A stretch of DNA of 64,000 nucleotides from Elmis aenea (taxonomy: Eukaryota > Arthropoda > Insecta > Coleoptera > Elmidae). This document shows, in pieces, positions 1,324 to 63,612 of the stretch; the first letter of the stretch is position 1; every line of letters starts with the position of its first letter. The notes beneath the pieces are model-generated. The model saw only the letters and a list, made by a program, of their open reading frames with translations. It was not told the DNA's origin and searched no databases. Both the position numbers and the translations under genes were made by a program. Location: contig OX393580.1 in NCBI GenBank assembly GCA_947652605.1, forward strand, positions 17,938,159 through 18,002,158, given 5' to 3'.

Positions 1324-2267
1324 TACAGGGTCAATTTCAGCATAAAATAGTATGAAATACCGCTTTTATCTTCTAAAATATTGTTTATTAACACAATGTT
1401 GTTTTTAAAATTTGCATCACCATTTTTTTCGCGCCTTATGGTGTACACGATTTTGTGTTGTTAAATACCTGAGCTTTTTGAAAGTGGTACTGTTACCGTG
1501 GCGCTATTGGTCATCCCTACTCCACTCTTCGACCAATAGCGTGCAACGCTCTGGCACGCACCGAGTATATATACTGGTCAAATTGCACGCTCTGGACAAG
1601 TCGCTTCTAGTACTAGAATAAGCTTTATTATTTCAACTGCTAAAGTAAGACTTCGAGGCTCGCACCACAGCGGAGTACGCAATGCAGTGGTGCGCAGCCA
1701 CAACACAGTTCGCCATTACGACGTCACCTACAACCTGTACCGACCCGGCACTTTCACCACGACGAAGCGGACACCGTCGCCTCCACCATCGAAGACAACG
1801 CCGCAGAAGTACTATCGGTGTTAGTACATTGCTCAAAATTTTCAAAAACAAGTGAATTACTCGAAAAAGGTTAATTTTAGGCCTATATTACCTTTCACAT
1901 TTTATAACGTACATTTAAAGAGGAATCCAGAAATGTAATAATATACAAAGTGTTCTATTTAAAATAACTAGGTTGGTTGCCATAGCAAAGAAAACAAAAT
2001 CGAGTAGTATAGGTACCATAAAGAGCAGAAAAGATAACGATGCATCTTTTATAAATAACATTTTGTTGTCAAATCATTATTTTAGAAGATAAAAGCGATA
2101 TTTCATACTTTTTTATGTTGAAATTGAGCTTTTTTTTCATAAACTTTAAAGGTCTATAACTCGATAGCCATCGAGTTTTGGCTGTGGTTTATATAACATT
2201 TTTTCCTTAAACTGACTCAAGGAACATGCACCTTAAGTTTGGCCGTTATGTCATCCAAAACCCTGTA
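1324..2267. mobile_element. TACAGGGT-ended palindromic element with GC-rich loop
   Basis: The ends are TACAGGGT on the left and its complement CCCTGTA on the right, each flanked by TA. Inverted arms run about 1331-1470 and 1990-2135, for example GAAATACCGCTTTTATCTTC against its mirrored copy near 2080-2105. The right arm lies about 130 bp inside the right end, so the element is asymmetric or rearranged. The loop holds the GC-rich patch listed separately. Confidence 0.6.
1485..1850 (+). promoter_or_regulatory. GC-rich CCAAT/TATA patch, candidate solo LTR or promoter
   Basis: This 365-bp island is much richer in G+C than its surroundings. It contains an inverted pair of CCAAT-like boxes (CTATTGGTC near 1505 and GACCAATAGCG near 1530), a repeated GCACGCTCTGG motif, a TATA box at 1566-1573 (TATATATA) and an AATAAG polyadenylation-like motif at about 1617. 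The order promoter, start region, poly(A) signal is what a solo LTR would show. A TG start near 1488 is plausible, but no clean TG...CA ends or target duplication are seen. A captured host promoter is the alternative. Confidence 0.3.
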
Positions 2268-3518
2268 TAACTTAAACCCTTATTTACAAGCTACGTAATA
2301 GAAAACATTGATATTTATACTGCAGTTGAGTAACAAACGGAATATTCACGGCACAGCAGTAAACTTTTCTGAGGATCGCCGGCGATCCTTACGGCTTCCA
2401 AGGTGTTAACTGATAAAGCAACGAACTTTTTGGTACAATTGCAAGTGGATACTAAGATATGTATACAAATTTTAGCACGCACTCTGACTTTAAAGCTGTC
2501 AAGAGTACATGCTTTCAAATTTTAAAGTAACATCGTATTCTGTGCTTTAATTTAAACTCGAAATACCCAACCTGCTCCTGTTTCACAAGGTGTCACCCTA
2601 GATTTATGCATACATTATGCAATTAATTTTAACCTCGTTTCTTATAAAATGTACTTATGGCATGTTTCATAAAGATAAAGAACGTGTGACACACAATTTT
2701 CGGTATAAAAATAAAATTGATTCTGACGTGCTACTAGTGTGTATTTTCTTTGTTAATTTGCAAAAATACAAGTGTTCTTAGCATGTAAACAACGGAATAT
2801 TAATTTTTAAATAGTAAAAAAGTTTGTCTGGTATTATAAAATTAAAAATGTATGCAGATTTCACTGGTAATAAAGCGGCGCTTTCCTAAATCTTTATTAA
2901 AACGTGAAAAATTGCACCATTCTTTGTCTCTTTGAGCTTGTCACCGCCATTTATAATCGCACGTATTAAAAAATGTTAGCTGCGTAGGTTGACGGTTGAA
3001 AAAGCATTTTAAATGGGTTTTTTTTTCGTAATTACCGTGTTGCGTGAAAATGTTGGGTTTTGCAAAGTCGGCTTAGAACATTATCATCGGTAATATGTTT
3101 CGGCGTAAACCGGGGCCCGTCCGCTATCAAATTAATCTCGTCTGCGCTCCAAATTTCACTGTACCACGGCGTACGCCCTTCTTCATCTTATGGTTGGTTA
3201 ATGAAAATGCTCGCCCGGCCACTTAAGTTGTCCGCTTAAGATAAAGATCGGATGGAATGATCTAAACAAGGAGATTAACTAACGAAAGCTGGAAATCGAG
3301 TTTCTTTACAGATACTTCCACTATTCAAGGACGTTTGTATAGTGCAAATCGATTCGTTGCGGTGGTGATTCTTGATAAAGCTATTTTTGTGGATGTTTTC
3401 TACTCTAATTCAATATTTGTCTACCGACTGTCAACACTTGGAGCGAACGAGTGTCCACTTAACGCGTGCTGCCCGCTGTGGCATCTTAGGGGGATGAAGC
3501 GAACGTTGAATAGAAATA
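2268..3518. other. Spacer, partly GC-richer near 3090-3330
   Basis: No convincing ORF or repeat was found. The part from about 3090 to 3330 has balanced composition and no obvious internal repeats, so it may be single-copy or conserved non-coding DNA (inference from composition only). Confidence 0.4.
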
Positions 3519-4506
3519 TACAGGGTGTTTCTTAAATATTGTAAAAACATTCGGGTGGTAATTCCTTATCGAAAATTAAGAGGGGTCTTTCATATAATTT
3601 TTTTCCTTAGACGTCTCCTTTTGGAGTTACACTCCCCTAAAGGGGAGCGGTAAAATAAGGTTTTTATTTTATTTCTCAAATTTGGATAAATGTAGGAGAA
3701 TGATATTTGGTATATGTCTTATACTTATTAAAAGGTTTCCCATAGTAATATTTTTAATCATCTCCCACCTTCCACAAAGAGCTGATAAGTGCGACTCCTG
3801 TTGGTTTTTTTATCAGAACTTTATGGTGGGTTAAAATTTTGCAAATAAAAAGTTTTTGTTTGAAAGCTTGCTTTATTTAGAAACTTTTTTTATTCCTTAG
3901 TTTTTCTCGTAAAACTTGCAGTTTTTGAGTGAAAAAAAAAATAAGTAAACATGAACCATCAAATATTCCAATATAAAACGATTCATTTGGGTTGTTGCCA
4001 TGGTTTGTTTATGTTTATATTGGGTAAAACAACAAAAACAAATTTTATGATCATTTGATTTTAAAATGCACAAAATGAGTTTTTCTCAAATTTCTGTGGT
4101 AAAAGTCATTTTAGATATTAAGTGTCATATATTAATATCATTGAAATCAGAAGACAAAATGCTATCCGACTGTGAGATTAAATTTTTTTCGCCGTATTTA
4201 AAAAAATTAAGTTGATTTTTCTGAAGAGACGAAACGTTGTTGGCAATTTTATGTTATCCCAAAAGAAGTTGCCACGGAGAAGTGCTTCCAGATTGTCGAT
4301 ATCTTAAAAAATGTAGGAAATAGAGCAAAAAAACGAAAATCCATTTTTTCAGTTTTTCTTGAATAACTTTTGAACTAAGACAGCTATGAAAATTTTCTTT
4401 GCAGATATCTGATGAGCATCTAATTTCACAACTTTGCCTTAATTTAACCGACCTCTTAGCTCAAGCGAGATCCCCATGCATTTACTCGAATTTGGGACAC
4501 CCTGTA
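3519..4506. mobile_element. TACAGGGTGT-ended element, 988 bp
   Basis: It starts TACAGGGTGTTTC and ends GGGACACCCTGTA, with TA on both sides. The right end carries GCGAGATCCCCATGC, which resembles the end of the palindromes at 6556 and 49004, so it is probably related. There are no coding regions. Confidence 0.6.
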
Positions 4507-6113
4507 TACGAGATCAGATTATAAAGTAATGTAATTAACCATGAACGAAACAATCATCAAAATTGTATTTAGTAACGTAGTATCTTCGGCTTCTACACTA
4601 TTAATCCAGAATTTTTTTCAATAATCTTGTGTCTTTTTAAAGTGGTAAGCCACTGTATGGACTCCAGCTTTATAGAATGGTCCCAGTAAAATACCTAGAG
4701 CCTTCGTAGCTACAAATAAACATGTTAATTTAATTTTAGGATGTATTACACAACAAAAATTAAGCCCCGCCTACAATTTACATCAAAATAATATACATTA
4801 CAATGCAAAGCATTGAAATGTACAATAACATACAGCGTTTTTAATGATATTGTTTTAATCTGTAGCATTTTAAGCCTCTGGCAATAATTATTTAACGTTG
4901 GTGTGTTTTTGAATCATATGTAATGTTAATAAATAAACATTTATGTAATTGGAATAAACAAAACGTGAATAATTTTCATTTGCAATCAACAGACGTCCTT
5001 AAATTGCTTGATTTACAATATTATTCTTAAGATTATTATATAAACTGCGTTTTGAAAGCGACTGGCTAAAATGTTGTTGATGTTTTAATAAAGATCGCTC
5101 GTCGGTTGTAACTTCTACATCCGTTTTTGCTTTCAAGTAACGTTTCGAATAAGTTGGAAGTGATTGATAGCTGCGCAGGTGGTCTGGCAAATTTAATAAA
5201 ACATCAATGCGGTCTCTAAATTTGCTGTGTATTTTTTTCTGATACGAAGACATATCAAAGTGTCATTTTATGTCTGATAGCTTCAGTTCCAAACGCAAGT
5301 TTGTAACATCTTGAATGAAAAGATAATTTGAACGGATTTGAACGGATTTAATAAATGTCCTGGTCTTGCTCAAATAATACGTCAGCGAATGATTAATTTT
5401 TTGTTTTTGAAATTAATAAGTGAAAGAAAAAAGTATTATACAGACTTAGCAGCTACATTAAAGGAGATCATGCCCATCACCATAAACATATAGGCTGTTA
5501 AAAGTGGTAAATATCAGAAAATAATTATTAATAGAGAGCATCCTGACACCACACCTAATTTATTGGTGTTTTACAACAAATTGGCAAAACGTCCAATTTT
5601 TGACTTAAAATATACACAAGGAACAACTACTCTACGTTAAAAATGTCCACCAATTTATGTAAACCCTGTATAGATACACAATATTGTCTTAAATGTGAAC
5701 AAATTTGTCCCGAAAACACGTTCATGCAATGAAATAAACCAAGATTGTTAAATTGTCTTAAAAAACTTTCGTTTTAACAGGCAGCGGTAATGCTATATTT
5801 AGAAGGCAACACTGAAGCTCTTTTAACTTCACAAGACGATAACTTAAAAAGTTTTCTGAGGCAGTAATTCAAAATTATCTCCAGTTATCTGTGTCCATGA
5901 CCGCTTAGACAATTTTTAATCTTAAATACTCAACGCAGTTTAAAACACCACCAAAAGGAAGTGAAGAACATAACATTTTAGCTACAGTATCTCTTAATTG
6001 CGGTGACGCTTAAATATTTCTTAACGTCAATGAGTACTTTTAAAGCAATTTTGTATATTTATTGTGTTTGTTATTGACTCAATTGCGCTAAAAGATTTTT
6101 TGTCGTTTTAAAG
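4507..6113. other. Spacer with one candidate small ORF
   Basis: AT-rich. Apart from the ORF at 4999-5253 there is a small duplication of TTTGAACGGA near 5327-5345. No other feature is supported. Confidence 0.4.
4999..5253 (-). CDS. Hypothetical small hydrophilic ORF, 84 aa
   Basis: An uninterrupted minus-strand ORF starts MSSYQKKIHSKFRDRI and is rich in Lys, Arg, Ser and Gln. It has no membrane segment or signal peptide and I recognise no domain. It lies in otherwise non-repetitive sequence and does not overlap a palindrome, unlike most short ORFs in this window. No obvious promoter, splice site or AATAAA accompanies it. It could be a chance ORF or an exon of an unseen gene; I lean to chance. 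Confidence 0.2.
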   Translation of the reverse strand: MSSYQKKIHSKFRDRIDVLLNLPDHLRSYQSLPTYSKRYLKAKTDVEVTTDERSLLKHQQHFSQSLSKRSLYNNLKNNIVNQAI

Positions 6114-15652: not shown

Positions 15653-18600
15653 TCATGTTAAACTTATGTGAACGAATTTTGTCCATTCCTTTTTGTTCTT
15701 CGCCATTCTTGTTGCTTCTGTCCAATTCTTATTTCGATTCTTTAAAATTAATGCCACTTCATCGTTCCATGTCTTCCTCGGTCTCCCCTTTCCTCGTTTA
15801 TTTCCATCCCTTGCCTCCCATATCCGTTTCACTTGTCTTCCTTCCCCCATTCTGTTGAGGTGTCCGAACCATCTCAGTTGGTTTCTCTCGATCACACTAT
15901 GTATCGACTCCACCTCCAGTTCTTCTCTGATCTGTTCGTTTCTTATCCTGTCTCTACGTGTGACACCCTTTACTGCTCTTAAGTATTTCATCTGCATCGC
16001 TTGTAATCTACTTCTCTGCGACTGATTTAGTACCCAACTCTCACTTCCATACACCAGGGTTGGTATGAATACTGTTTTGTAAATAGTCATTTTTGTTTTC
16101 CTGCTTATTTCTCTTTTTCTTATTATCGATCTATTCATACTGTGATACAATTTAGCTGCACTGCTTATTCTTTCTTTTATCTCGTTTTCTATGTTACCTT
16201 CTCTCTCTATCCAAATTCCCAGATATTTATATTCTTCCACCTGTTCTATTTTTTCCTGATTCAGTTCTATGTTGAGTTGCTTTTGATCTTTACCTATCAT
16301 CATAACCTTTGTTTTATTCGTGTTAATCTTTAATTTCTTTTTCTTTAATTCTTCTTCCCATACCAATAGGTTTTCTTGTAGGGCTTTTTCCGTTGGTGCA
16401 CAAATCAGCATGTCATCAGCAAAGGCACATTCTGACAGGTACACTGGCATTAACTTATTGAAACCTATATGTACCTTTCTAGTCTTGGTTTCTACAGCTT
16501 TAATGACGTCATCCATGGCTAATACGAATAGTGTCGGGCTTAGTACACCTCCTTGCCTTAGTCCGTCATTTAAGTCAAAGGTCTTTGATTCTAGATTATC
16601 TTTTCTTACGTAACTTTTGTTGTTAGTGTATAGGCTTTGTATACTCTTTAATAGTTTGTGGTTAATATTTCTGCGTTTTAATCCTTCCCAGATTGTCTTT
16701 TGTGACACTCTGTCAAAAGCCTTCTCTAAGTCCAAAAATGCCAGGTATACTGCCTCTTTTGTTTTCTTTTTTCCCATTAGTTGTTTCACGGTGAAGATAT
16801 GGTCGTGTGTGCTTCTTCCTTTCCTAAATCCGCTTTGTGTTTCGGCTAATTGTTTCTCGGTTATTTTCTTCAGTTTCCTCTCTAGTATGAACTCGTAGGC
16901 TTTGGATATAATGCTTAATAGTGTGATCCCTCTGTAGTTTGTGCAGTGTCGGTTGTCTCCTTTCTTAAATATTGGTATTATTATTCCGATTTTCCATTCG
17001 TTAGGCACTTCTCCTTGGGTCCATGCTTTGTTAAATAAGTGTGTAACTATGTCTATTCCTTCATTTCCTAAATTCTTTACCATTTCTGGCGTGATACCAT
17101 CATGTCCAGCCGATTTCCCTTGCTTTAGGTGTTTTAATGCTTCTGCAACTTCTATTCTATTTATGTTTGCTTCTTCTTCCATGTTATCCGGCATATAATC
17201 ATCCTCTTCTACTTCTTCTTCTGTTGTGGTTAAGAGCTCTTGAAAGTATTCTCTCCATCTATCCATTATCTCTGCGTCGTTTGTTAGTAATTGATTGTTT
17301 TTTGCTTTCACGTGTTTTATTACTTGTTGTTTGCCTTTTTTTAATTTTCGTAGTACTTTGTAAAAAAGTTTTTGATTTGTTCTGCTATTCATTTCCATTC
17401 TTCTGCCAAATTCTTCCCATGATTTGTTCTTTTCTATTTTGATCAGTTCTTTAACTTTTGTTCTTTGATGTTTATATTTTTCATATTCTTCATTTGACTT
17501 ACTGCCCAGGTATTGCTTCCACAGTTTTTTCTTTATTCCGACTTCATATTTAATGTCCTGATTCCACCAACTCGTCTGTTTTTTTCTTTTGTTTATTCTT
17601 GTTATTCCGCATGTTTTTTCTGCTGTTTTCAGGATAATTTGTTTTAGCATATTCCACATTTGTTCTAATTCCATAGTTTCCCAGTCTTTTATTGATTTTA
17701 TCTTTAGTTCCACTTCCTCTCGGTATTTGCCTGCTATTTCTGGCTCTTGTAACTTATACGACCTGATTACCTCTTTTATATTTTTTGTCTGCATTTCATT
17801 CCTTTTGTTTTCTTGATTCTCTACTTGTATTTTTATTTTTGCCACCAACATGTAGTGGTCACTGTAGATTTCTGCACTTCTTTTAACTTTAACGTCTAGC
17901 ACTTCTCTTCTAAATTCTCTATTCACTAATACATAATCTATTATGGATTTTTCATTTCTGCTTCTAGATTCTCTAGTATACTTGTGTATATTTTTGTGCA
18001 TAAAGAAAGTGTTTGTTATGATAAAATTATTTTCCATACAGAAATTTATCATCCTATCTCCATTGTTGTTTTTGTGTTTCTCGCCATACTGACCTAATAC
18101 ATCAACTGTTTCATTTTTCCTTATTCCCACTCGACTATTAAAGTCTCCTAGTATTATAATTCTATCTTTTCCTGTTTCGGCGGTGACCGTTAGTTTTTCC
18201 CAGAATTCTTCTTTTTCTTTGGCTGTATCATCTTCATTTGGGCCATACACTATTATTATTGTCGTGTCCTTACTTTTATCTAATTGCATTTGTATTTTAA
18301 GTATTCTAGGTGATATAAATTCCCAATTTGTTAGTGCGTGTGCATGTTTGTCTCTAATAATGCAACCTACCCCTTCCGCTGCTCTACCTTGCTGTTCAAC
18401 TCCGCAATAAAGTATCATGTGTTCATCAATTTTAAATATTCCTTGTCCTTTTTTTTTCGTTTCCGTGATTGCCAGTAGATCGAGTTGTGCTTTTTCAAAT
18501 TCATCTATTAATTCGTTCTCTTTTCCATTTATACTCCTGATGTTCCATGTGGCTATTCGTAATGTATTTTCTTTTTTCCGGTTTAAATCGTTTATTATTT

Positions 18601-18826
18601 TTATTTCGTTTTCCCTATTCTTCTCCTTTGTCGTTGTTCTTTTTTGTACTTCTTCCTTCCCTTTTAAGCTCCTCACTTTCCCTATTCCTATGTTTGTAAT
18701 TTTGTTTCTTTCCTCATGTAAGTCCTTGTCCTTTGCCTGTGTCATCATCTGTTTGCCTTTTTCTTTATTCTTTGTTAGTTTTTTGCTCTCTTGTCCTGGC
18801 TTGTGTTTACCATTTCTGGAGACCAT
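15653..18826 (-). CDS. LINE ORF2: AP endonuclease and reverse transcriptase
   Basis: The 1057-aa ORF has all expected parts. An AP-type endonuclease is at about residues 88-330: ATWNIRS near 92, LAITET near 118, YGPNEDD near 194, LGDFNSRVG near 226, SIIDYVLVN near 294, and SDH near 322. Reverse transcriptase is at about 610-850: PIFKKGDNRHCTNYRGITLL, QSGFRKGRSTHD, motif A FLDLEKAFD near 697-705, GLRQGGVLSPTLF near 755, catalytic FADD at 802-805, KYLG further on. The C-terminus carries LRWFGHLNRM and GRPRKTWNDEV. The N-terminal 85 residues are very basic. No stop or frameshift is seen. It would nick target DNA and copy its own RNA there. Minus strand relative to the window. Confidence 0.93.
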   Translation of the reverse strand: MVSRNGKHKPGQESKKLTKNKEKGKQMMTQAKDKDLHEERNKITNIGIGKVRSLKGKEEVQKRTTTKEKNRENEIKIINDLNRKKENTLRIATWNIRSINGKENELIDEFEKAQLDLLAITETKKKGQGIFKIDEHMILYCGVEQQGRAAEGVGCIIRDKHAHALTNWEFISPRILKIQMQLDKSKDTTIIIVYGPNEDDTAKEKEEFWEKLTVTAETGKDRIIILGDFNSRVGIRKNETVDVLGQYGEKHKNNNGDRMINFCMENNFIITNTFFMHKNIHKYTRESRSRNEKSIIDYVLVNREFRREVLDVKVKRSAEIYSDHYMLVAKIKIQVENQENKRNEMQTKNIKEVIRSYKLQEPEIAGKYREEVELKIKSIKDWETMELEQMWNMLKQIILKTAEKTCGITRINKRKKQTSWWNQDIKYEVGIKKKLWKQYLGSKSNEEYEKYKHQRTKVKELIKIEKNKSWEEFGRRMEMNSRTNQKLFYKVLRKLKKGKQQVIKHVKAKNNQLLTNDAEIMDRWREYFQELLTTTEEEVEEDDYMPDNMEEEANINRIEVAEALKHLKQGKSAGHDGITPEMVKNLGNEGIDIVTHLFNKAWTQGEVPNEWKIGIIIPIFKKGDNRHCTNYRGITLLSIISKAYEFILERKLKKITEKQLAETQSGFRKGRSTHDHIFTVKQLMGKKKTKEAVYLAFLDLEKAFDRVSQKTIWEGLKRRNINHKLLKSIQSLYTNNKSYVRKDNLESKTFDLNDGLRQGGVLSPTLFVLAMDDVIKAVETKTRKVHIGFNKLMPVYLSECAFADDMLICAPTEKALQENLLVWEEELKKKKLKINTNKTKVMMIGKDQKQLNIELNQEKIEQVEEYKYLGIWIEREGNIENEIKERISSAAKLYHSMNRSIIRKREISRKTKMTIYKTVFIPTLVYGSESWVLNQSQRSRLQAMQMKYLRAVKGVTRRDRIRNEQIREELEVESIHSVIERNQLRWFGHLNRMGEGRQVKRIWEARDGNKRGKGRPRKTWNDEVALILKNRNKNWTEATRMAKNKKEWTKFVHISLT

Positions 18827-19476
18827 TGGCTGTATGATCTCGCGCTTGATTTTGGGTGCTCTGTTACCACTGCCTTTTCTCTAACCGGTTTCGTTTCACC
18901 CTTCAGGTCCTGAATTGTGTAGCTCTTACCATTTATTATCAGTTTGTTGTAGTTAATGAATGCTTTGTTTCCTTTTTCCCTTTCTCCCCTCATATATTCT
19001 GCCAATTGTTTCCTTTGCTGACGTATTTGTTCTGGTAAGTCTTCTACTATCCATACGTCTTTTCCTTTCAGTTGTTTTTTCTCCTTTAGTATTCTTATTT
19101 TTATTTCTATTGTTGCTACTTCCAATAATATTGGCCTCGTTTTGCCACTTTCCTGCCTTCCAATTCTTCTTGCTGTAATATCTTTATCCTTACTAATCTC
19201 AATTCCCATGCCATTCACCATCTTTACTACTTCCTCTTTCAGTGACACCTGATTTTCATTTGCTACCTCATTTATACCATGAATTATTAAGTTCTTTTCT
19301 CTACTTTTCCTTTCCAGGGCCTCTATTCTTTCTTCCTGATTTTCTACTTGTTTTGTTAGTTTCTTGTTTTCCTTTGTTAGTCTTTCTATTTCTTTGAGGC
19401 TTGTATCCAGTCTTATATTTATGCTATCTAGCTTACAATTTATTTCCGCTAGCGCCTTTAGTATTCCTTCTTCCAT
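18775..19476 (-). CDS. LINE ORF1: coiled-coil RNA-binding protein
   Basis: The 233-aa protein has a coiled coil at about residues 1-65 (leucine/isoleucine heptads with Lys/Glu, ending near EALERKSREKN). It is followed by an RRM-like region starting LIIHGINE (about 62-69), then ITARRIGRQESGKTRPILLE and KDVWIVEDLPEQIRQQRK. The last 30 residues are Ser/Lys-rich. This order (coiled coil, RRM-like, basic C-terminus) is known for ORF1 proteins of several LINE clades, which trimerise and bind the element RNA. The ORF overlaps ORF2 by 52 bp, so ORF2 may need reinitiation or an unconventional start. Confidence 0.8.
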   Translation of the reverse strand: MEEGILKALAEINCKLDSINIRLDTSLKEIERLTKENKKLTKQVENQEERIEALERKSREKNLIIHGINEVANENQVSLKEEVVKMVNGMGIEISKDKDITARRIGRQESGKTRPILLEVATIEIKIRILKEKKQLKGKDVWIVEDLPEQIRQQRKQLAEYMRGEREKGNKAFINYNKLIINGKSYTIQDLKGETKPVREKAVVTEHPKSSARSYSQWSPEMVNTSQDKRAKN

Positions 19477-24508: not shown

Positions 24509-26601
24509 TTAGCCTCACTAAGAACCTATCGTATGTGCGACTGCTGTCATTTTCAGTATTTAATTTCAGCCATTAAAGCTGAAAAAAAAGCATACATTCA
24601 ACATAAAATGAAAAATAGTGCTAATAATATGTGGAATGTTTTAAGATCGTCCAGCATACTAAGAAATAATATAACAACTTTGCCACATGAATTAAAAAAT
24701 ATTAATGAAATCAACTCTCATTTTTTGAGTAGCAAATCAAACTTACAGCAAGACGTCACTGAAATGTTAGATTACTATAACTCTAACAAATTAGTTGATA
24801 CAACTTTCTCCTTTTTATTAATTGATGAGGAAACTGTGTTTGATATAATCAATTCTATATCCTCAAAAGCTGAAGGTTATGTTGGAATTAATATATATCT
24901 CCTTAAGTTAACATGTCCTGTAATTCTACCATATCTAACCAACATTATCAATACTTGTTTATTGGAGGGTAAATATCCAACGTTATGGAAACATGCAATT
25001 GTTAAACCTCTGCCTAAAGTTAAAAATCTAATAGATTATAAGTCGCTTCGCCCAGTTAGTATTTTACCAACAGTATCAAAAATCTTGGAAAAAATTGTTA
25101 ATACTCAATTACGTGAGTATTTAAACTTGTACAGTGTAATACCATCTACACAGTCAGGGTTTAGGAGAGGTTATAGCTGTGAAACGGCTCACACATATTA
25201 TTGATGACATTGTTAAAGCCACAGATCAAAATAAACACAGTACTAGCTCTTATTGACTTCTCTAAAGCATTTGATACAATAAATCATGATTTACTAATTT
25301 CAATATTAAAACATATTGGTCTTGACCAACTATCGTGTAATTTTTTCATAAACTATCTGCAAGGGAGAGTACAATATGTAAAAATTGATAATGACATATC
25401 AAATCCCATACAATTAAAAAGTGGTGTCCCCCAAGGATCTATACTTGGACCATTGCTGTATAGCATTTATACGTTCAACCTAAAGCAATCTGTGTTACAC
25501 TCTGCAACACACTTCTACGCAGACGACACTCAGTTATACCTTTCGTTTACAAAGGAAGAGTTTTTAAACGCCTTATTAAATTTCAATGCAGATTTAGATA
25601 ATTTAGTTAAATATGCAGCTAAACACAGCTTAAATATTAACACCGACAAAACAGAATTATTACTATTTGGCCCTAAAAAGCTTAGAGAAATATATTTAGA
25701 AAATCCCCTTCCAATAAAAATTTGCTCCAACATAATCAAATTCACTGCTAAAGCAAAAAATTTAGGTGTCATTATAGATCACCAATTAAAATTTAATTTT
25801 CATATTAACAAATGTTTACAAATGGCCTACATCTCTTTAACAACAATATATGCTAACAGATACCTCTTAACTAGAGGCCAAAAAAAGATATTGTGTAATT
25901 CATTGGTACTGTTTCATTTTAATTTTTGTGATAGTGTGTATGGTTCATTTATTGATAGCACCAATAAACAAAAAATTCAAAAAATTCAAAACTCGTGCAT
26001 GAGATTAATCTTTGGCATTAAGAAATATAGTCCCATATCGCATACGTTGAAAGACTTGAGATGGCTTAATATGTTTAATCGTCGTCTGCTACATGCAGCA
26101 TGTTTTTATCACAAGTTGATTATTTCCCATACGCCTCCTTATCTTTATAGTAAAATTAAATATCGTGAAGATGTGCATACTTTAAATATTAGGTTCAAAG
26201 GTACACTAACCCCTCCTCACCATAAAACAGAATTCTTCAAAAAGTGTTTTTCATATACAATTACCAAAATTTATAACAGTATAGACCCTTTATTTAAAGG
26301 TTTACCTTTGAACTTATTTAAAATTAAATTTCATAAACACCTACTGCTATCGTCATTCAACTAGTTTCTTGCTGGTAAGTGTCGGGCCACGTCGGTTCAG
26401 TGCTGCAACACGTCAATATGTTTATGTGCTTGTTGTATTCAGCTTCAAGGTTGGGTGGCAGAACAGCTGTCTTGTGGACAACGCTGAACCCCGCCTTGCG
26501 ATTTTCCCCAAAAAAAATTCTTTTTTAATTGTTGTATTTTGTTTATTTAAAAATGTGGAAATAAAGCCGTATATTATTATTATTATTATTATTATTATTT
26601 A
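24509..26601 (+). mobile_element. 5'-truncated LINE (Jockey/CR1/L2-like) with (ATT)n tail
   Basis: Reverse transcriptase coding sequence begins abruptly at about 24509, with no endonuclease upstream. It runs to a stop at 26364, a 3' UTR, AATAAA at about 26559 and an (ATT)n tract at 26573-26600. A simple-repeat tail and 5' truncation are typical of CR1/L2-type elements. No target duplication could be found. Confidence 0.85.
24533..26364 (+). pseudogene. Reverse transcriptase pseudogene, one frameshift
   Basis: Two ORFs in different frames (24533-25204, 25201-26364) together cover an RT domain. The first has LRPVSILPTVSKILEKIV and TQSGFRRGYSCETA. The second has motif A ALIDFSKAFDTINHDLL, SGVPQGSILGPLLYSIYT and the catalytic FYADDTQLYLSFT, then the thumb and C-terminal region (ILCNSLVLFHFNFCDSVYG, MRLIFGIKKYSPIS). 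The frame break is at about 25187-25193, where a net loss of two bases (or gain of one) breaks the domain just after QSGF...ETA. Endonuclease and ORF1 are absent. It is inactive but little decayed otherwise. Family resemblance is to Jockey/CR1/L2 rather than to the LINE at 15594. Confidence 0.88.
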
Positions 26602-27974: not shown

Positions 27975-29085
27975 TTATTGTACACAATTATGGCACACTA
28001 TTTTCGAATGTTCTTTGCAAACATTTTTTTTACACAATTCGCAAATTTGAAATATTTTTCTTCTTTTTTCACAAAGATAACAAGCTGATCGTTTTACTTT
28101 TGTAGGTGGCTCAAAAGACATGCTAGGTGCATCATATATCTTTGCCTAAATATGGCAAGCCATTTAGAGGATAACCCGTTGCATAGTCGCTGGCCCAAAA
28201 CATTTTCATGCCATATTTAGCTGGTTTAGACGGGATATATTGTTTAAAGGGACAACGTCCTCTAAAGCCCACAAGTTGCTCATCAACAGTTATGGTTGCT
28301 CCAGGCATGTAATATTTTTTCAAATTTATATTTACCATATCCCATATTTCTCGGATTGGTGCAAGCTTATCATTTTCTCTCCTAGTTCGTCTAGATGATC
28401 TATCATCAAATCTAATGAAGCGTAGAATTTCTTTGAAGCGGTTGTAAGACATTGTTGCGCGAAAGATAACTGGTCCGTACAATTTAGTCCAAAGTCGCTT
28501 GGAACTTAGATGTGATAATTGCATGTGCCCTGCTGTCAATAAAATTCCAATAAATGCATCTATTTCTATGGAATCAACATCTTTCCACTTTTTTACTAAT
28601 ACTTTTTCTCTATGTACTCGCTCAGCTTCAATATTTGTATATGTAACAATTTTATGCATAATTTCGTCCGTTATATACAAGCGAAATGCATCAATTGGTT
28701 CCTCTATTATACGGTCTGGAGGAAGAATGACCTTATCAACAGATCCCTTTATAATGTTGTGTGTAGGAGTTCGACCAAATAGTTGTGGATTACAATATCA
28801 TTTAGTATTATCTTTTGGCAACTCATGAAAATCATTATTTGGCAAAATATTCGTATTTGGTTCTTCTTCAGGTGTAGTTTCATCGGTTTCTTGAAATTCA
28901 CATGTATCGTCAACATCCGAATTTTCGCTTATATGATCTTCTTCATTATCATCGTTATCATCATCGTAATTATCATTCTCCTCGTCACTAGAAATTTCAT
29001 TATGAAAAGTTGTTTCATCATCCGGTTCATCGTCGAAATCAAGGGCTAAACGAAGTTCTTCATCGGTTAGACCGCGTCGAGACAT
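27975..29085 (-). pseudogene. piggyBac transposase pseudogene, stop codon and internal deletion
   Basis: The N-terminal part (28798-29085) starts MSRRGLTDEELRLAL and is highly acidic. The same frame continues after one TGA at 28798-28800 into PQLFGRTP and then the DDE_Tnp_1_7 region (28132-28680): DAFIGILLTAGHMQLS, ILRFIRFDD, and ITVDEQLVGFRGRCPF with the first catalytic Asp. The frame ends at GLPYLGKD. The C-terminal zinc-binding cysteine domain reappears in another frame at 27975-28125 (CYLCEKRR, ICELCKKNVCKEH, CHNC). The middle of the gene with catalytic Asp 2 and 3 is missing, so no active enzyme is possible. Confidence 0.88.
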
Positions 29086-48030: not shown

Positions 48031-49003
48031 AGTATTGTAATTTATAGCCTAATATACAATTCCACAGCATGTAGTTGTGTATTATAACCTAAATTGTATC
48101 TCCAAGCTTTATCAATAGCAAGCAAACGTAGTGTTAAATTAAACTGCATTGTTTATCGCTCTGTAGACATATATTAAGAGCTATACCGTGTAATGCCTTG
48201 ATTGCAAAACATAAATACAGTAATCCAAGCTCTATATTCAATAATATGCTTGTTTTGTGTTTGAAGTCACTGAGAATTTCAATAGGTAACTTCAATTTTT
48301 GTTCAGTAAGGTACCACTTACTTTCAAGTGTGTGCTGAAAAGTTTATTTTCAAAGCTACTTAATTAAGTGTTAAATATTCAAGCTGATTTAATCGTACAA
48401 AATATTTCTTTAAACCAGCTACAATCTAACAAATTTGGCTGATAGATAAAAAAGCCTTCCTCTCATTTAAGACTGAAACTGTGCACAAACACATTAAAAT
48501 GCAATATAGAAGAATGCCCTGGAGATAACTTAATTAAGGAAAGTGAAGTTTTGGTTGTTTTCCAGTTTGGTTGCGTCCGAGACTGCCAATTCTGTCCTAA
48601 GAGAGTAATGCCGTCATCCCTACCAGTCCGTTTGTCCTTAACTAACCCAGAAACTTCGATAAATCTAAAACCTGAGCGAATAAATAATTAAGGAAAGTTC
48701 TGTAATAAAATTAACCGGATTTAAAAATGATGAAATTGGTTTTACACCACTAATCACAGAATTTAATTTTTAAAGGCTAAATAATTTTCATTTTTACACA
48801 AAAAAAATCAATATGCATTCTCCACTTTACCACAATCTTGCATTTAAGATGTAAATAAATCAAAACGCTAACACTATACCAAGTTACCAAGAGTTATCTT
48901 TGATTTCACTATTGGTTATTATATATGTATGCAAGGGTAACTTGTCATTAGGAGCCCTAGGGACCGAGCCCTACCTGTATTTGTGTAACAAGCCAAATAA
49001 ATA
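48031..49003. other. AT-rich spacer
   Basis: Nothing recognised. Confidence 0.4.
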
Positions 49004-50507
49004 TACAGGGTGTCCCAGATTACATTTCCAGCATGGGGATCTCGCTTATTATAAGAGATACAGGTTTGTTTAAATTAGATGAATTATTCCTTGGTATGAG
49101 AGGAGCCACAATCAATTTTTAAAAGTACTAAATTCCTCGTGCTTCAGATGTTATAGCAAAAAATATGAAAATGTCCAATTTCTTTTTTCTCTCATAACTT
49201 TTTTGTCTTAATCATTAGAATAATTTTATTTGTACTTTCTTAAGGCACTTTTTAATGAAGAATGTAACTGTTATTTTTCACACCTACCATTTTCGAGATA
49301 TTACCCCTAACTTCATTTTTTCTTATGAGCCGCGAAGTTGGCTATGGAACAGTTGAATGTGCTTTTTTTTCCTCTTTAAAATGAGATAGTACTTGCTATG
49401 TGTATTTTTTAAATAAGTCACAAAATCAAGAAAAATCATATTTTACCCAACACTTATTAAGTTATCTATGAAAATAAAAAGAAAAAATAACTAATGATGT
49501 GTCAAATGACAGTTACCATTTGTCTGCGGTGTCATTTATTAGAGTTTTATAGTATTGTTGTGTAATTCGATAGTCTTTGTAGCAAATCTGTTATCATATA
49601 ATTATGGGCACATTTACAACTAATTAAAAATTTATATGTTGAAATGCCACATTATTTACAATAGAAACTGTGTAAAATAAATAATTCTAATTAATTATTG
49701 ATTTGTTTTGGATTTTTGGTTGGTTTGTCGAACAAACCATATACTTTTAAATTTATTTCCAGATTTTTGTAATTACGCATCCTTCGTTGCCTTTTCTCGG
49801 AATATAGCTCTTATTATATTCGCTCAGCTTCTTTACAGTTTTTATGGCAAAGAATGTAGCATCTCAACATGTCAAATTAATCGCTATTTTTAAATGTTGC
49901 CATCATTATAACAATTACTACAAAGACTATCGAATTACACAACAATAATGTGAAATTCAAATAAATTTTAGCGCAGACAAACGGTAAATGTCATTTGACA
50001 TTTAATTAGTTGTTTTTTGTTTTTATTTTCATAGATAACTTGATAAGTGTTGGGTAAAATATGATTTTTCTTGATTTTGTGACTTATTTATAAAAATAAA
50101 TGTAGCAAGTAATATCTCATTTTAAAGAGGAAAACAAAGCACATTCAACTATTCCATAGCCAACTTCGCGGCCTATAAGAAAAAATGAAATTAGGGGTAA
50201 TATCTCGAAAATGGTAGGTGTCAAAAATAATCTAAAATAACAGTTACATTCTTCATTAAAAAGTGCCTTAAGAAAGTACAAATAAAATTGTTCTAATGAT
50301 TAAGACAAAAAAGTTATGAGAGAAAAAAGAAATTGGAAATATTCATATTTTTTGCTATAACATCTGAAGCACGAGGAATTGTGTACTTTTAAAAATTGAT
50401 TGTTGCTCCTCTCATACCAAGGAACAATTCATCACATTTAAACAAACCTGTATCTCTTATAATAAGCAAGATCCCCATGCTGGAAATGTTATCTGGGACA
50501 CCCTGTA
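49004..50507. mobile_element. Long palindromic element (CATGGGGATC family), copy B
   Basis: TA-flanked ends TACAGGGTGTCCCAGAT and ATCTGGGACACCCTGTA, then CATTTCCAGCATGGGGATC mirrored at 50470-50490. The arms extend about 600 bp each, through GAGCCGCGAAGTTGGCTATG and GTGTAATTCGATAGTCTTTG. The central loop is about 340 bp and includes an ORF with no known domain. Confidence 0.9.
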
Positions 50508-50753
50508 TATTTATAGTAATTAATAATTTTTTATTTATTTCCAACACGTTTTATTTTCTGATTAAAAAAATTACTGTAGTATTTTATGGCAATATTGTAT
50601 AATGCGACTTAGTACGGACTCTGTTTTATACAAGTAGAGCACGGGGTATGTGTAGGGTTGCCAATTGTACGCTTTTGGAGCGTACATACGCATGCCTTTG
50701 AAGAAACTCATAGAAATGTGCGCGTTTTGGTCATGAAAACTTAAGAGCTATTT

Positions 50754-55758: not shown

Positions 55759-56237
55759 TTCTCTTTTCAATGATGCAAAACTTTTGTACCGTTGCTAAGC
55801 AACTTTTTGAGAAAAACGCAAAATATGTTTTAATTGATTTGTTTTAATTGATTTATTTCTAACGAATTTTTGACGAAATCTACAATAAGTGTTCAAACTG
55901 TAAACCATTTACAGCTTGGCAATGATAAATTCGGTTTTTAAACCCTTCTAACATTCCCAACCATTTCAGGTGTAATTTCTCTAATACGACCTTTTAAATT
56001 TTCGATATTCTCCGGCCTTTTCACATAAACTTAATTTTTAAGGTGACTCCATCATTGAAAATTTAAAAAAAATCCATCAAATGAGTATAATATAGGAGTA
56101 CCTTGCCATTTTAAACCATTCAATTGCTTTTCATTGCGCTTTTGTTATTCAAAAAAAAAAACATTTAAATTTTGTCTTATGGAGGAAAACTAAGTACTAA
56201 ACAACCTTCATTTTTCCCTAAAGTGGATATCTACTAA

Positions 56238-56952
56238 CAAGGGAAGGTCACGATACGTTGTCGCTAGAATTTGATTCCGGCTGTGTTTATTACATCAAGG
56301 GCATCAAAACTAAATATTTTCCAGAGTTATACGTGCCACTGGCCATTAACTTCGGAAAAATAGGGGAAAAACTGAATAGCTGATTAATAAAAGTAATATT
56401 TGCGATCGCGTTGGCCATGAAACCGTAAAAGACAAAATCGAAATTCTTCTATTTACCAATGCGCGCATCCTTTCCAAGTAAAATGGTGCAAAGTTTTTGA
56501 AAAAATCTTAAACGGTTCCGAAGAAAAACGCAAAAAACGAGGCCTTTGTAAAAACGGTTTTCCCTATGTTAAACGCCTATGCAAGTCGCATAGATATAGT
56601 AATACAGATATGCGACAACTACTCAATACATAGCGCTTATACAGGGGTTTGGTTTTTGACGTTTTTCTCCGGAACCGTTCAAGATTTTTTCAAAAACTTT
56701 GCACTATTTTACTTGCAAAGGATGCGCCTATTGGTAAATAGAAGAATTTCTATTTTATCTCTGACGGTTTCATGGCCAACGCGATCGCAAAAATGACCTT
56801 TTTGTACCAATTTTTTAGTTTTTTTCCTATTTTTTCGAAGTTAATGGCCAGTGGCACGTATAACTCTGGAAAACATTTAGTTTTGATGCCCTTGATGTAA
56901 TAAACACAGCCGGAATCAAATTCTAGCGACAACGTATCGTGACCTTCCCTTG
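56238..56952. mobile_element. Long-TIR Harbinger-like MITE, copy 3
   Basis: 715 bp flanked by TAA (56235-56237, 56953-56955), with ends CAAGGGAAGGTCACGATACG and CGTATCGTGACCTTCCCTTG. Arms of over 300 bp are nearly identical. The other palindrome arm (54050-54080) shows the unoccupied site with a single TGA/TAA, which supports the 3-bp duplication. Confidence 0.9.
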
Positions 56953-56995
56953 TAAGATATATAGCATATTTCATACATTTTGGACACACTGTATA

Positions 56996-60960: not shown

Positions 60961-61244
60961 ACTCTTTATTTATTGCTACAACCGACCTTTTTTTGAGGAA
61001 AGTTTAGTTTATTATAAAGTAAAATTTGAGAGAAACATTTTTACATTCCTGGATTTTTTAATTAATTTCGTGAATATAAAATTTACAAAAAAAAGTTGTA
61101 GACCTTAACATAGACAGAATATTTAATATTTTATTATTTACCTTATATTATAACTTTAAAAACCTGTACATTAGTTATTACTGGAAAAATCAACTAAATG
61201 CACGGACTTTGTAATATACTCGTACTTTTTAAGGCTCTATGTAT

Positions 61245-61563
61245 TGTAAGAAAACTACTTATAGTTGGTTGTTATGGCAACTTTTATTAGTTTTCTTTAT
61301 ATTTAACAGTTCTCTAAAATATATTTCATTTTAACATCATGAACATTTTTGCAACAAAATCCGTAATTGTACGGTAAATTGATATTATGACTACTAACCT
61401 GTCCCAGGTAAACGCACCTCTCGGTGACAGATACAGTTAAATAATGACGTACGATTTAAAGACATGAGGCTGCGGGCCGGTATAAAATTACCAAACGAAT
61501 ACCAGCGGTACCAAGTAAACATCATGATTCGAATTAAACTGTATTAATTAAAATACTGTTACA
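61245..61563 (-). repeat. 3' LTR
   Basis: 319 bp, starting TGTAACAG on the minus strand and ending CTTACA. An AATAAA lies about 40 bp before the end, a likely polyadenylation signal. Confidence 0.95.
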
Positions 61564-61576
61564 ACTGTCCCCCACA
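61564..61576 (-). promoter_or_regulatory. Polypurine tract
   Basis: The minus strand reads TGTGGGGGACAGT directly before the 3' LTR, the expected place for plus-strand priming. Confidence 0.75.
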
Positions 61577-62405
61577 TTCGCGAGTAGGTCAAGACAAGGA
61601 GCCAGGCTTTTAGGAATTCCTAAGTAAAAGAATAAATAACAACCAAATAGGTTACCATGGATTAGCCACGAGCGAAAGTACCATGAAACTGTTTTAAATG
61701 AGAGGCATAAAAAACCCCCCTTTCAGTTCCGTTAGCTTTTCCCAGCACATAAGTATAGGTTCCGACTTGTTTTTACATTGTATTATTTAAATGAATTAAC
61801 AAATACAAACCTAGTTTAAAAAATTAGAAACTTTTTTTTAAATAAATCCATATTGCACATAAAAAAGTTATATCACTGTATGGTCTTTATGAATAAAATA
61901 CAAATGAATTGATAATTTTGTTTAATTAAAGCTCACTTGAACAGTTCCACAGAAGGAAAACTCTTTTTCTGTGTCTTTTAATTAAGCACATTCACACACA
62001 TACAACATAAATTACTAGTGAATTTGTATCAATATTACAAAATAGGCCACATTGCATAGTCTACAGTATCAAAATGATTGAGAAACACTGTGCCACAGCA
62101 TGCTTCATTACTATCAGAAATGGCATTAGTGAAAATTAAAAAACAAAAAATAGAAAAACACACAACAACCTAATACTAATGATCGCAACATAATGTTAGT
62201 CTAAAACCATTTCAAAATAAAATATTTGAAAAATGTCAGCACCATTCAAACTAGAGTATAATTACCACTTATGCTAATAAATTTATAGAGGTAGTTGAAT
62301 AGGATAAAACTTAACAATATGAAAATAAATCATAGATAGCATTGTTGGCAAGACTGTACAACACTAAATTATTTTGTACAAAAAAATCAATTGTTATTCG
62401 AAACG
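61577..62405. other. Non-coding interior of LTR element
   Basis: No ORF of any length on the element's strand and no RT or integrase motifs. Confidence 0.6.
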
Positions 62406-63125
62406 CTAACATCCCTTGTTTATTTTCGCTTGCTGAAAATCGTGATTAAAATAATCAGCTATGCGTAGAAACTTTAGAGCATCAGGTATGTTTTGGCAAT
62501 CGCTAAGGGAATATGATAGTTGTGGGGGAAAGTGTTTTGCAATTTTTTCAATAAGCTGTTGTACAGGGTGAAACCCATTTACATCTGAAAATGTCGGTGA
62601 CATTTTCATAATCTCGGAATTAACACCGCTGGATTTTGTTGCATTACACACACAATTATTACAATCATTTGTGGCAAACATATTTTCCGATGGTAGGCTA
62701 TAAATTGAATTATTAATTTGGTTCACCTTGTTAAGGTTAGATTCGTCAATATTAACGGACGTTTCCTTGTTGAACTTATCTCCTTCGAAAAATATCTCTG
62801 GGTTGTGATACGCAGCGAGGTCAAGAGATGTTCGATTTTCGCCTTTACGCGTGGACGGTTCCGTGACTGCTTTTGCAGCATTAAAGAAATCAAAAACGGT
62901 ACCTTTATTTGTAGTACTTGCCGCCACTAGCTTTGAAGGTGACATCGTGTTTTTTCCGTTTTCCTGTCCCCCAGCTTCCGTACGTATCAAACGGCTGCCA
63001 TCGTCCAGATCTTCGTTACGATGGTTTTGCTGTTTTGATTTGTTTCTAGTCCAATACTGGTTGGATTTTGGAATCGATCCCTTATTTGTCGAGCCAAATT
63101 GCGTGGGCGAATGTTGGATCGCCAT
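62406..63125 (-). CDS. Unique 239-aa ORF in LTR element, unknown function
   Basis: The ORF begins 12 nt after the primer site. The N-terminal 60 residues are polar and basic, followed by KGTVFDFFNAAKAV near 74 and LDLAAYHNPEIFFEGDKF. A cysteine cluster CNNCVCNATK is in the middle. A more ordered-looking end has VQQLIEKIAKHFPPQLSY and ALKFLRIADYFNHDF. There is no capsid major homology region, CCHC knuckle, protease or RT. It could be a rapidly evolved gag or a captured host coding sequence; I do not recognise it. Its frame is open despite 720 bp, consistent with recent insertion. Confidence 0.7.
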   Translation of the reverse strand: MAIQHSPTQFGSTNKGSIPKSNQYWTRNKSKQQNHRNEDLDDGSRLIRTEAGGQENGKNTMSPSKLVAASTTNKGTVFDFFNAAKAVTEPSTRKGENRTSLDLAAYHNPEIFFEGDKFNKETSVNIDESNLNKVNQINNSIYSLPSENMFATNDCNNCVCNATKSSGVNSEIMKMSPTFSDVNGFHPVQQLIEKIAKHFPPQLSYSLSDCQNIPDALKFLRIADYFNHDFQQAKINKGC

Positions 63126-63136
63126 AATCAGAAGTT

Positions 63137-63154
63137 GGTTTACGTTGAGCGCCA
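63137..63154 (-). promoter_or_regulatory. Primer binding site
   Basis: Two bases after the 5' LTR the minus strand reads TGGCGCTCAACGTAAACC. It begins with the complement of a tRNA 3' CCA end (GCGCCA). The matching tRNA is not determined. Confidence 0.7.
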
Positions 63155-63156
63155 GT

Positions 63157-63475
63157 TGTAAGAAAACTACTTATAGTTGGTTGTTATGGCAACTTTTATT
63201 AGTTTTCTTTATATTTAACAGTTCTCTAAAATATATTTCATTTTAACATCATGAACATTTTTGCAACAAAATCCGTAATTGTACGGTAAATTGATATTAT
63301 GACTACTAACCTGTCCCAGGTAAACGCACCTCTCGGTGACAGATACAGTTAAATAATGACGTACGATTTAAAGACATGAGGCTGCGGGCCGGTATAAAAT
63401 TACCAAACGAATACCAGCGGTACCAAGTAAACATCATGATTCGAATTAAACTGTATTAATTAAAATACTGTTACA
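63157..63475 (-). repeat. 5' LTR
   Basis: Matches the 61245 LTR base for base as far as I can compare by eye. Confidence 0.95.
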
Positions 63476-63612
63476 GTATTTGTCGTTTGACGTACCTACG
63501 GCAAATTGTCCAGATAAAGACCATCTGTGCATGAGATGCGCAATTTTTTTTTATAGCCAACTTTCAGAGGCCCCTGCGAGCGCTTCTTGCGCATGTGCAA
63601 AATCCGCCACCG

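Follow-up and report, generated by a model that had tools for sequence, protein, structure and literature searches.

A young LTR retrotransposon of Elmis aenea with a predicted shortened Gag and a non-coding host segment

The element and its single long reading frame

How does an LTR retrotransposon with two identical LTRs come to carry a single long reading frame in which no retrotransposon domain can be recognized? This question is raised by an element at positions 61245-63475 of the window, the 64,000-nucleotide stretch of Elmis aenea DNA analysed here; its sense strand is the minus strand. A first-pass annotation had proposed that the ORF might be a captured host coding sequence, or that the element was small and encoded only an unusual gag. 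The parts of the element (coordinates, strand, feature) are:

63157..63475, minus: 5′ LTR, matching the other LTR at 319 of 319 positions
61245..61563, minus: 3′ LTR, matching 63157-63475 at 319 of 319 positions
61241..61244, no strand: target-site duplication GTAT, one side, flanking the 3′ LTR
63476..63479, no strand: target-site duplication GTAT, other side, flanking the 5′ LTR
63137..63154, minus: primer binding site TGGCGCTCAACGTAAACC, 2 nt past the 5′ LTR
61564..61576, minus: G-rich tract, a weak polypurine tract, adjoining the 3′ LTR
62406..63125, minus: ORF of 239 codons, a putative Gag remnant, collinear with the 396-aa Gag of a full-length relative (L012, below)

Most of the architecture described in the first-pass annotation was confirmed. 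The two 319-bp LTRs (61245-61563 and 63157-63475) are identical throughout and end in TG...CA, the GTAT duplication is present on both sides, and the primer binding site (TGGCGCTCAACGT...), which we take to be tRNA-Lys-like, begins at 63154, 2 nt inside of the 5′ LTR (63475-63157). The polypurine tract is there in the sense that a short G-rich tract ending GGGGGACAGT adjoins the 3′ LTR, but this tract is weak. The annotated ORF (63125-62406, minus) is indeed the sole long ORF on the minus strand of the element, and 2000 dinucleotide-shuffled versions of the internal region contained no ORF as long (longest, 175). The copy has no protease, reverse transcriptase or integrase of its own; of pol it keeps the last 36 codons only. 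Below, s denotes the sense-strand position in the element, such that the window coordinate is 63476 - s.

Database searches said little about the ORF. A Pfam scan of the 239-aa product gave only a sub-threshold match to Metallothio_11 (E 0.0023, below the cut-off of that family), a PDB search gave nothing below E 0.2, and there was no match up to E 10 among 5.8 billion proteins. In IMG/VR neither the ORF nor the LTR, primer-binding-site and polypurine-tract patterns found a match; in GTDB genomes the patterns matched 19 times, none of them a relative, and phage and plasmid records gave no match. A single-sequence structure prediction was uninformative (mean pLDDT 34.7). Among candidate identities, a captured C-terminus of the decapping protein Dcp1 received no support from Pfam scans of pieces, and was dropped once the Gag identity was settled. 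That identity came from other copies in the same genome.

Copies of the family, a full-length relative and a host segment

We searched the element against the assembly (516 Mb, 302 contigs). The whole-element search gave at least 51 matches, of which seven span the full element at 97.8-100% identity to the window copy. These seven copies (L001-L007, 2229-2233 bp) make up the window-type class. A second class of seven (L013-L019) has the same two internal seams, described below, but carries a further 303 bp and encodes a Gag of 340 aa in an open frame; five of them (L013-L017) are 2534 bp long, and L008 is another fetch of the L013 copy. Three long copies of 4265-5215 bp, L012 (5215 bp), L010 and L011, share with the short class only sense positions 1-917 and 1702-2231, two of them also 916-1063. 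L010 is without L012 positions 3653-4364 and L011 without 1166-2107 (the L011 seam has 8 shared bp), so that both derive from the L012 form by a plain internal deletion. Further, L020 is a partial long copy at 95%, L021 and L022 hold three solo LTRs between them (two and one), and diverged LTR relatives lie at two more loci (L023, L024); these classes leave out six minor match places (C1:26314759, C1:39311130, C2:64075778, C3:41114591, C6:12744681 and C9:6560789).

All 17 copies with two LTRs have TG...CA ends and a 4-bp target duplication. The LTRs within a copy are free of mismatches in six of the seven short copies (L006 has 6), in four of the five 2534-bp copies (L014 has 1; L018 and L019 fall outside this count) and in two of the three long copies (L010 has 1). 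From these identical or near-identical LTRs it follows that the family moved recently, and the first-pass claim of recent retrotransposition, made for the window copy, is partly right.

Several individual copies have features of their own. In L011 the 942-bp deletion leaves gag and pol fused in a single continuous frame that has no protease region. L018 and L019 (2364 bp) both lack the same 85 bp in each of their LTRs, which points to a variant LTR that still transposed. L021 was considered as a 7.3-kb full-length element and rejected, as it consists of two solo LTRs, each flanked by ATAT; they lie ~7 kb apart on a small contig and are likely a duplicated solo-LTR site. Of ten contig ends read (2 kb each), one carries (CCTAA)n, a repeat of the arthropod type.

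L012 has two overlapping frames, one for a 396-aa Gag (positions 351-1541) and one for pol (1502-4795), the latter with matches to RVP (2e-11), RVT_1 (1.2e-27), RT_RNaseH (5e-35), rve (9.3e-15) and SH3_Tf2-1 (4e-7). The domains run RVP, RVT_1, RT_RNaseH, H2C2, rve, SH3_Tf2-1, that is PR-RT-RH-IN, and the RNase H piece (the third of four pol pieces) has Ty3 Gag-Pol as its best match in PDB (E 9.4e-26). Domain order, LTR ends and the 4-bp duplication all fit a Ty3/gypsy-type (Metaviridae) LTR retrotransposon, which is what the L012 lineage is on these sequence features. L012 and the window copy have in common the LTRs, primer binding site, leader, 5′ part of gag, pol end and polypurine-tract region, at 97.4-98.7%; unlike L012, the window copy is without the capsid stretch, the gag tail, protease, reverse transcriptase, RNase H and nearly all of the integrase. 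An autonomous partner sharing LTR, primer binding site and polypurine-tract region, which the first-pass annotation had suggested looking for, thus appears to exist in the form of L012 with its full set of pol domains.

Comparison with these relatives located the internal boundaries of the window copy:

62559..62560, minus: seam of an in-frame 303-bp deletion, with a 2-nt shared AA, its place ambiguous by 2 nt
62413..62421, minus: gag/host seam of 9 bp, at 8 of which L012 gag and host agree, AAAC[G/A]AGGG
61775..62412, minus: captured host non-coding segment, matching G000:C1:28693697-28694330
61665..61774, minus: 3′ end of the parental pol, holding the final 36 codons for the integrase C-terminus (61772-61665)

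Residues 1-189 and 190-236 of the ORF align to residues 1-189 and 291-337 of the L012 Gag, which makes the two collinear; the three C-terminal residues (KGC) and the stop codon fall in the seam or the host part. The 303-bp deletion removes 101 Gag residues (190-290) in frame; the segment was also considered as an intron and rejected, as the seam is not GT-AG and the length is in frame. The ORF thus appears to be the Gag of a 5.2-kb Ty3/gypsy-type element of the same genome, internally deleted and with its tail cut by the junction, and because it is collinear with L012 Gag except for the last three residues and the stop, it is not host-derived. This bears on both first-pass proposals: the ORF is no captured host coding sequence, the host part being a non-coding stretch behind it, and an element encoding only an unusual gag is right as to Gag, but this is a deleted remnant in an element that also carries a host segment and a pol end. 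The absence of gag, protease, reverse transcriptase and integrase motifs, also claimed, is true of the Pfam scan of the ORF, but not of the comparison with relatives, in which the ORF is collinear with Gag and 61772-61665 (minus) corresponds to the C-terminal 36 residues of Pol. The protein search that had been recommended gave no significant homologue in Pfam, PDB or the 5.8 billion proteins. Gag homology, which was to make the element a deletion derivative, largely applies: the ORF derives from Gag by deletion.

The full-length Gag is itself poorly connected to known proteins: a Pfam scan of L012 found no gag domain, and of 2342 candidates in a protein search with the 396-aa Gag none matched up to E 10. 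Residues 187-259 align to the N-lobe of Arc capsid chains at E 0.5 (0.48-1.0), a weak match with unrelated proteins scoring better, the best of them the repeat protein Crov588 (E 4.2e-4), of which no single stretch passes alone. The whole Gag aligns to Arc capsid chains at E 0.9-1.1, again weakly and behind peanut lectin (E 0.15). Most of the Arc-aligned stretch falls within the deleted residues 190-290.

Between gag and the last 36 pol codons lies a host segment of ~640 bp. The corresponding s 1063-1702 of the short copies matches none of the three long copies and, among the genome matches listed, has one non-element match, C1:28693697-28694330; that this place is single rests on the whole-element genome search, whose counts are lower bounds. 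On the same strand, an activin receptor type II gene has its stop codon 5.3 kb upstream of this place. The gene was identified by reading its exons, one kinase exon of which was tested in PDB and matched activin receptor type IIB best (E 8.3e-38), then IIA. The donor stretch is likely the 3′ UTR of this gene. L012 found no match at E 1e-8 in the host loci around this place (L009, L025-L027).

Relative to the host place, each of the 14 chimeric copies has 15-21 mismatches over 532-534 aligned bases (2.8-3.9%); among themselves the copies differ by up to 3.15%. In L001, 120 bp are present only in the element (61917-62036 by global alignment) and 100 bp only at the host place; the latter were tried as an intron and rejected, having no GT-AG ends. 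Because the host place is thus an inexact donor, the capture would be old relative to the insertions, or the donor allele differs. Because the captured stretch has no intron, splicing cannot prove an RNA origin. The host segment is joined to the pol end through a shared AAAAAC (61774-61769), so that the seams share 8 of 9 bp (gag/host) and 6 bp (host/pol), counts given without a chance expectation. Template switching leaves shared bases of this sort at its junctions, and the seams fit such an origin here.

Beyond s 1702, as far as the 3′ LTR, the sequence of the short copies is that found at the end of the long copies; this part includes the final 36 pol codons, 30 of which fall in the SH3_Tf2-1 match of L012. 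Alone, this relic gave nothing in Pfam, no protein match, no match in IMG/VR and only weak unrelated matches in PDB; it could be identified as an integrase end because of the comparison with L011 and L012. The suggestion of a chimeric element with host sequence therefore holds as to the presence of a host segment, but this is non-coding and outside the ORF. We consider it very probable that the window element is a non-autonomous, trans-mobilised chimeric deletion derivative of a Ty3/gypsy-type element of the same genome.

Mosaic structure and selection on gag

The window copy is a mosaic of the chimeric and the full-length lineages:

62943..63170, minus: tract with full-length-lineage bases, from variable-site tables and the four-gamete test

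A four-gamete test over s 1-916 (24 sites, 17 copies) was failed by 65 of the 276 informative pairs of sites. The window copy has bases otherwise found only in L012 at s 344, 358, 399 and 533, and bases found only in the short class at s 685, 686, 730 and 852, with the switch to short-class bases between 62943 and 62791; at s 780 it is without the base common to the other six short copies. In both LTRs its U5 base is of the full-length type (s 306 and 2218), while its U3 (143 and 2055) and 3′ part (such as 1735, 1740 and 1808) are of the chimeric type. During reverse transcription, the U5 of both LTRs is copied from the 5′ end of the RNA and the U3 from the 3′ end; this pattern therefore fits a cross between a full-length-type RNA and a short RNA in one particle, and the mosaic points to co-packaging. 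L012 could itself be a recombinant, with exchange in either direction, and gene conversion among DNA copies could have made part of the mosaic.

If conversion or end joining acted more widely, both the mosaic and the host segment might stem from DNA-level events. The missing intron in the captured stretch agrees with this, as does the fact that the U5 argument rests on a single site; however, DNA-level events do not readily place a full-length U5 base in both LTRs of a copy with chimeric-type U3 and 3′ part, and 14 copies with their own 4-bp duplications show that the chimera transposes, although this does not settle its first origin. We regard DNA-level events as an unlikely source, while giving them some weight.

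There is no sign of purifying selection on the gag of the family, in a test of low power. Over 17 copies, 21 of 188 codons vary, and 19 of these 21 changes are nonsynonymous (start codon included), against a random expectation of 78%. The test has little power, because in the three long copies too all four differences in gag codons 1-188 are nonsynonymous. The ORF is kept in all seven copies of the 340-aa class, and in the window-type class the frame is open from codon 1 to the stop in 7/7; these open frames say little, because so few changes separate the copies. In three of the seven window-type copies the start codon is changed from ATG to GTG. The purifying selection for which the first-pass annotation proposed a test is therefore not visible, and the outcome it set against its own reading, an ORF not conserved among copies, largely applies, with the start lost in three of the seven copies of this class.

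This evidence also bears on a possible function of the shortened Gag, which might work in trans as a decoy, entering or disturbing the particles of the full-length element, such that the family regulates its own parent. The Gag fragment p22 of yeast Ty1 is a precedent of this type, and the exactly in-frame deletion and the frame open in all seven short copies would be expected of a decoy; GTG for ATG in three of them and substitutions that look neutral would not, and we think the idea improbable. It is more improbable still that the element is a plain internal deletion derivative, in which the AT-rich stretch past the ORF is old element sequence such as a lost env or 3′ region. L010 and L011 show that such derivatives of the L012 form occur, but the stretch between gag and pol end is absent from all three long copies and matches one non-element place, around which L012 finds nothing, and this reading is largely refuted. 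Virtually no credence is left for an ORF of captured host coding sequence kept for function, as its lack of a significant homologue (Pfam, PDB, 5.8 billion proteins) is outweighed by its collinearity with full-length Gag, which refutes the idea, and by the start lost in 3/7 copies and the absence of visible purifying selection.

A possible origin and its known counterparts

A trans-mobilised chimeric derivative of the L012 lineage could have arisen in four steps. First, during reverse transcription of a full-length RNA, synthesis would have switched from pol to a host RNA and from there to gag at short shared sequences; the host RNA would have been non-coding, from downstream of the activin receptor type II gene and of the same strand. 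The gag tail, protease, reverse transcriptase, RNase H and most of the integrase would thereby have been replaced by ~640 bp of host sequence. Second, the resulting 2534-bp chimera would have multiplied. Third, an in-frame loss of 303 bp from the capsid part of gag in one chimera would have given the 2231-bp form, which would likewise have multiplied. Fourth, the window copy would have come from a further round of reverse transcription, with a short RNA and a full-length-type RNA both serving as template. Throughout, the chimera would have kept the LTRs, primer binding site, 5′ leader and polypurine-tract region, and would have been moved in trans by the proteins of full-length copies. We infer the order of these steps, RNA rather than DNA as the substrate of capture, and the trans-mobilisation from sequence; movement in trans is suggested because the short class is without enzymes and capsid stretch and has GTG in 3/7 copies, yet numbers at least seven.

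The host stretch may also give the chimera an advantage at the RNA level, in stability, export, packaging or escape from small-RNA silencing. We hold this to be doubtful; it would explain why 14 chimeric copies were read against three long ones, of which one is full-length. If true, the short class shed capsid code, and in some copies the start codon, while still spreading.

Template switching is known to join LTR elements with host mRNA at short shared sequences in D. melanogaster and Plutella (PMC9674220, PMC5408686). Such LTR-mediated retroposition resembles the window family in that host sequence enters an LTR element at switch points marked by short stretches of shared bases. It differs in that the window family took up only a non-coding stretch, with both seams within its own gag and pol, and in that there are at least 14 chimeric copies, which recombined with the full-length lineage. 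Tan 2016 is said to be the primary study on LTR-mediated retroposition and chimeric LTR retrotransposons. Maize Bs1 is an LTR element with pieces of three host genes inside (PMC13317346). It is like the window family in having host segments within an LTR element; the window family carries a single, non-coding piece.

The TR-GAG elements of plants are non-autonomous, with LTRs, primer binding site, polypurine tract and a gag ORF but no pol enzymes. The window class differs from these in being without the capsid stretch and sometimes without a start codon, and in carrying host sequence; the 340-aa class fits TR-GAG better. TR-GAG elements are defined in part by a Gag kept under selection, whereas here the start is lost in 3/7 copies and 19/21 changes are nonsynonymous, in a comparison of low power.

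Chimeric and gag-only LTR elements were already known, and the window family is a new member of this kind, of moderate interest for the completeness of its history. The titles and abstract openings covered by our literature search, which did not go by species name, contained no such insect element with this history. One animal genome holds the full-length parent, the host place, the first chimera, the deleted form and the recombinants, and most family copies have identical or nearly identical LTRs. The family may thereby lay out the steps by which an LTR retrotransposon acquires host sequence, loses genes and parasitises its parent. For annotation it carries a warning: an ORF standing alone between fresh LTRs can be what a deletion has left of gag, and the host part the silent stretch beside it.

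The window contains other repeats. A non-LTR retrotransposon at 15653-19476 (minus) looks intact and has two long frames, one of 233 aa with weak coiled-coil-like matches and one of 1057 aa with endonuclease and RVT_1 matches. A second non-LTR reverse transcriptase lies at 24533-26364 (plus) over two frames, with RVT_1 in both, and a fragment at 28132-28680 (minus) matches the DDE_Tnp_1_7 transposase family (E 1.3e-39) and is presumably piggyBac-like. Inverted or dispersed repeat families of several hundred bp, ~76-89% alike, occur at 48997-50514, 56234-56956 and related places, at many sites in the window.
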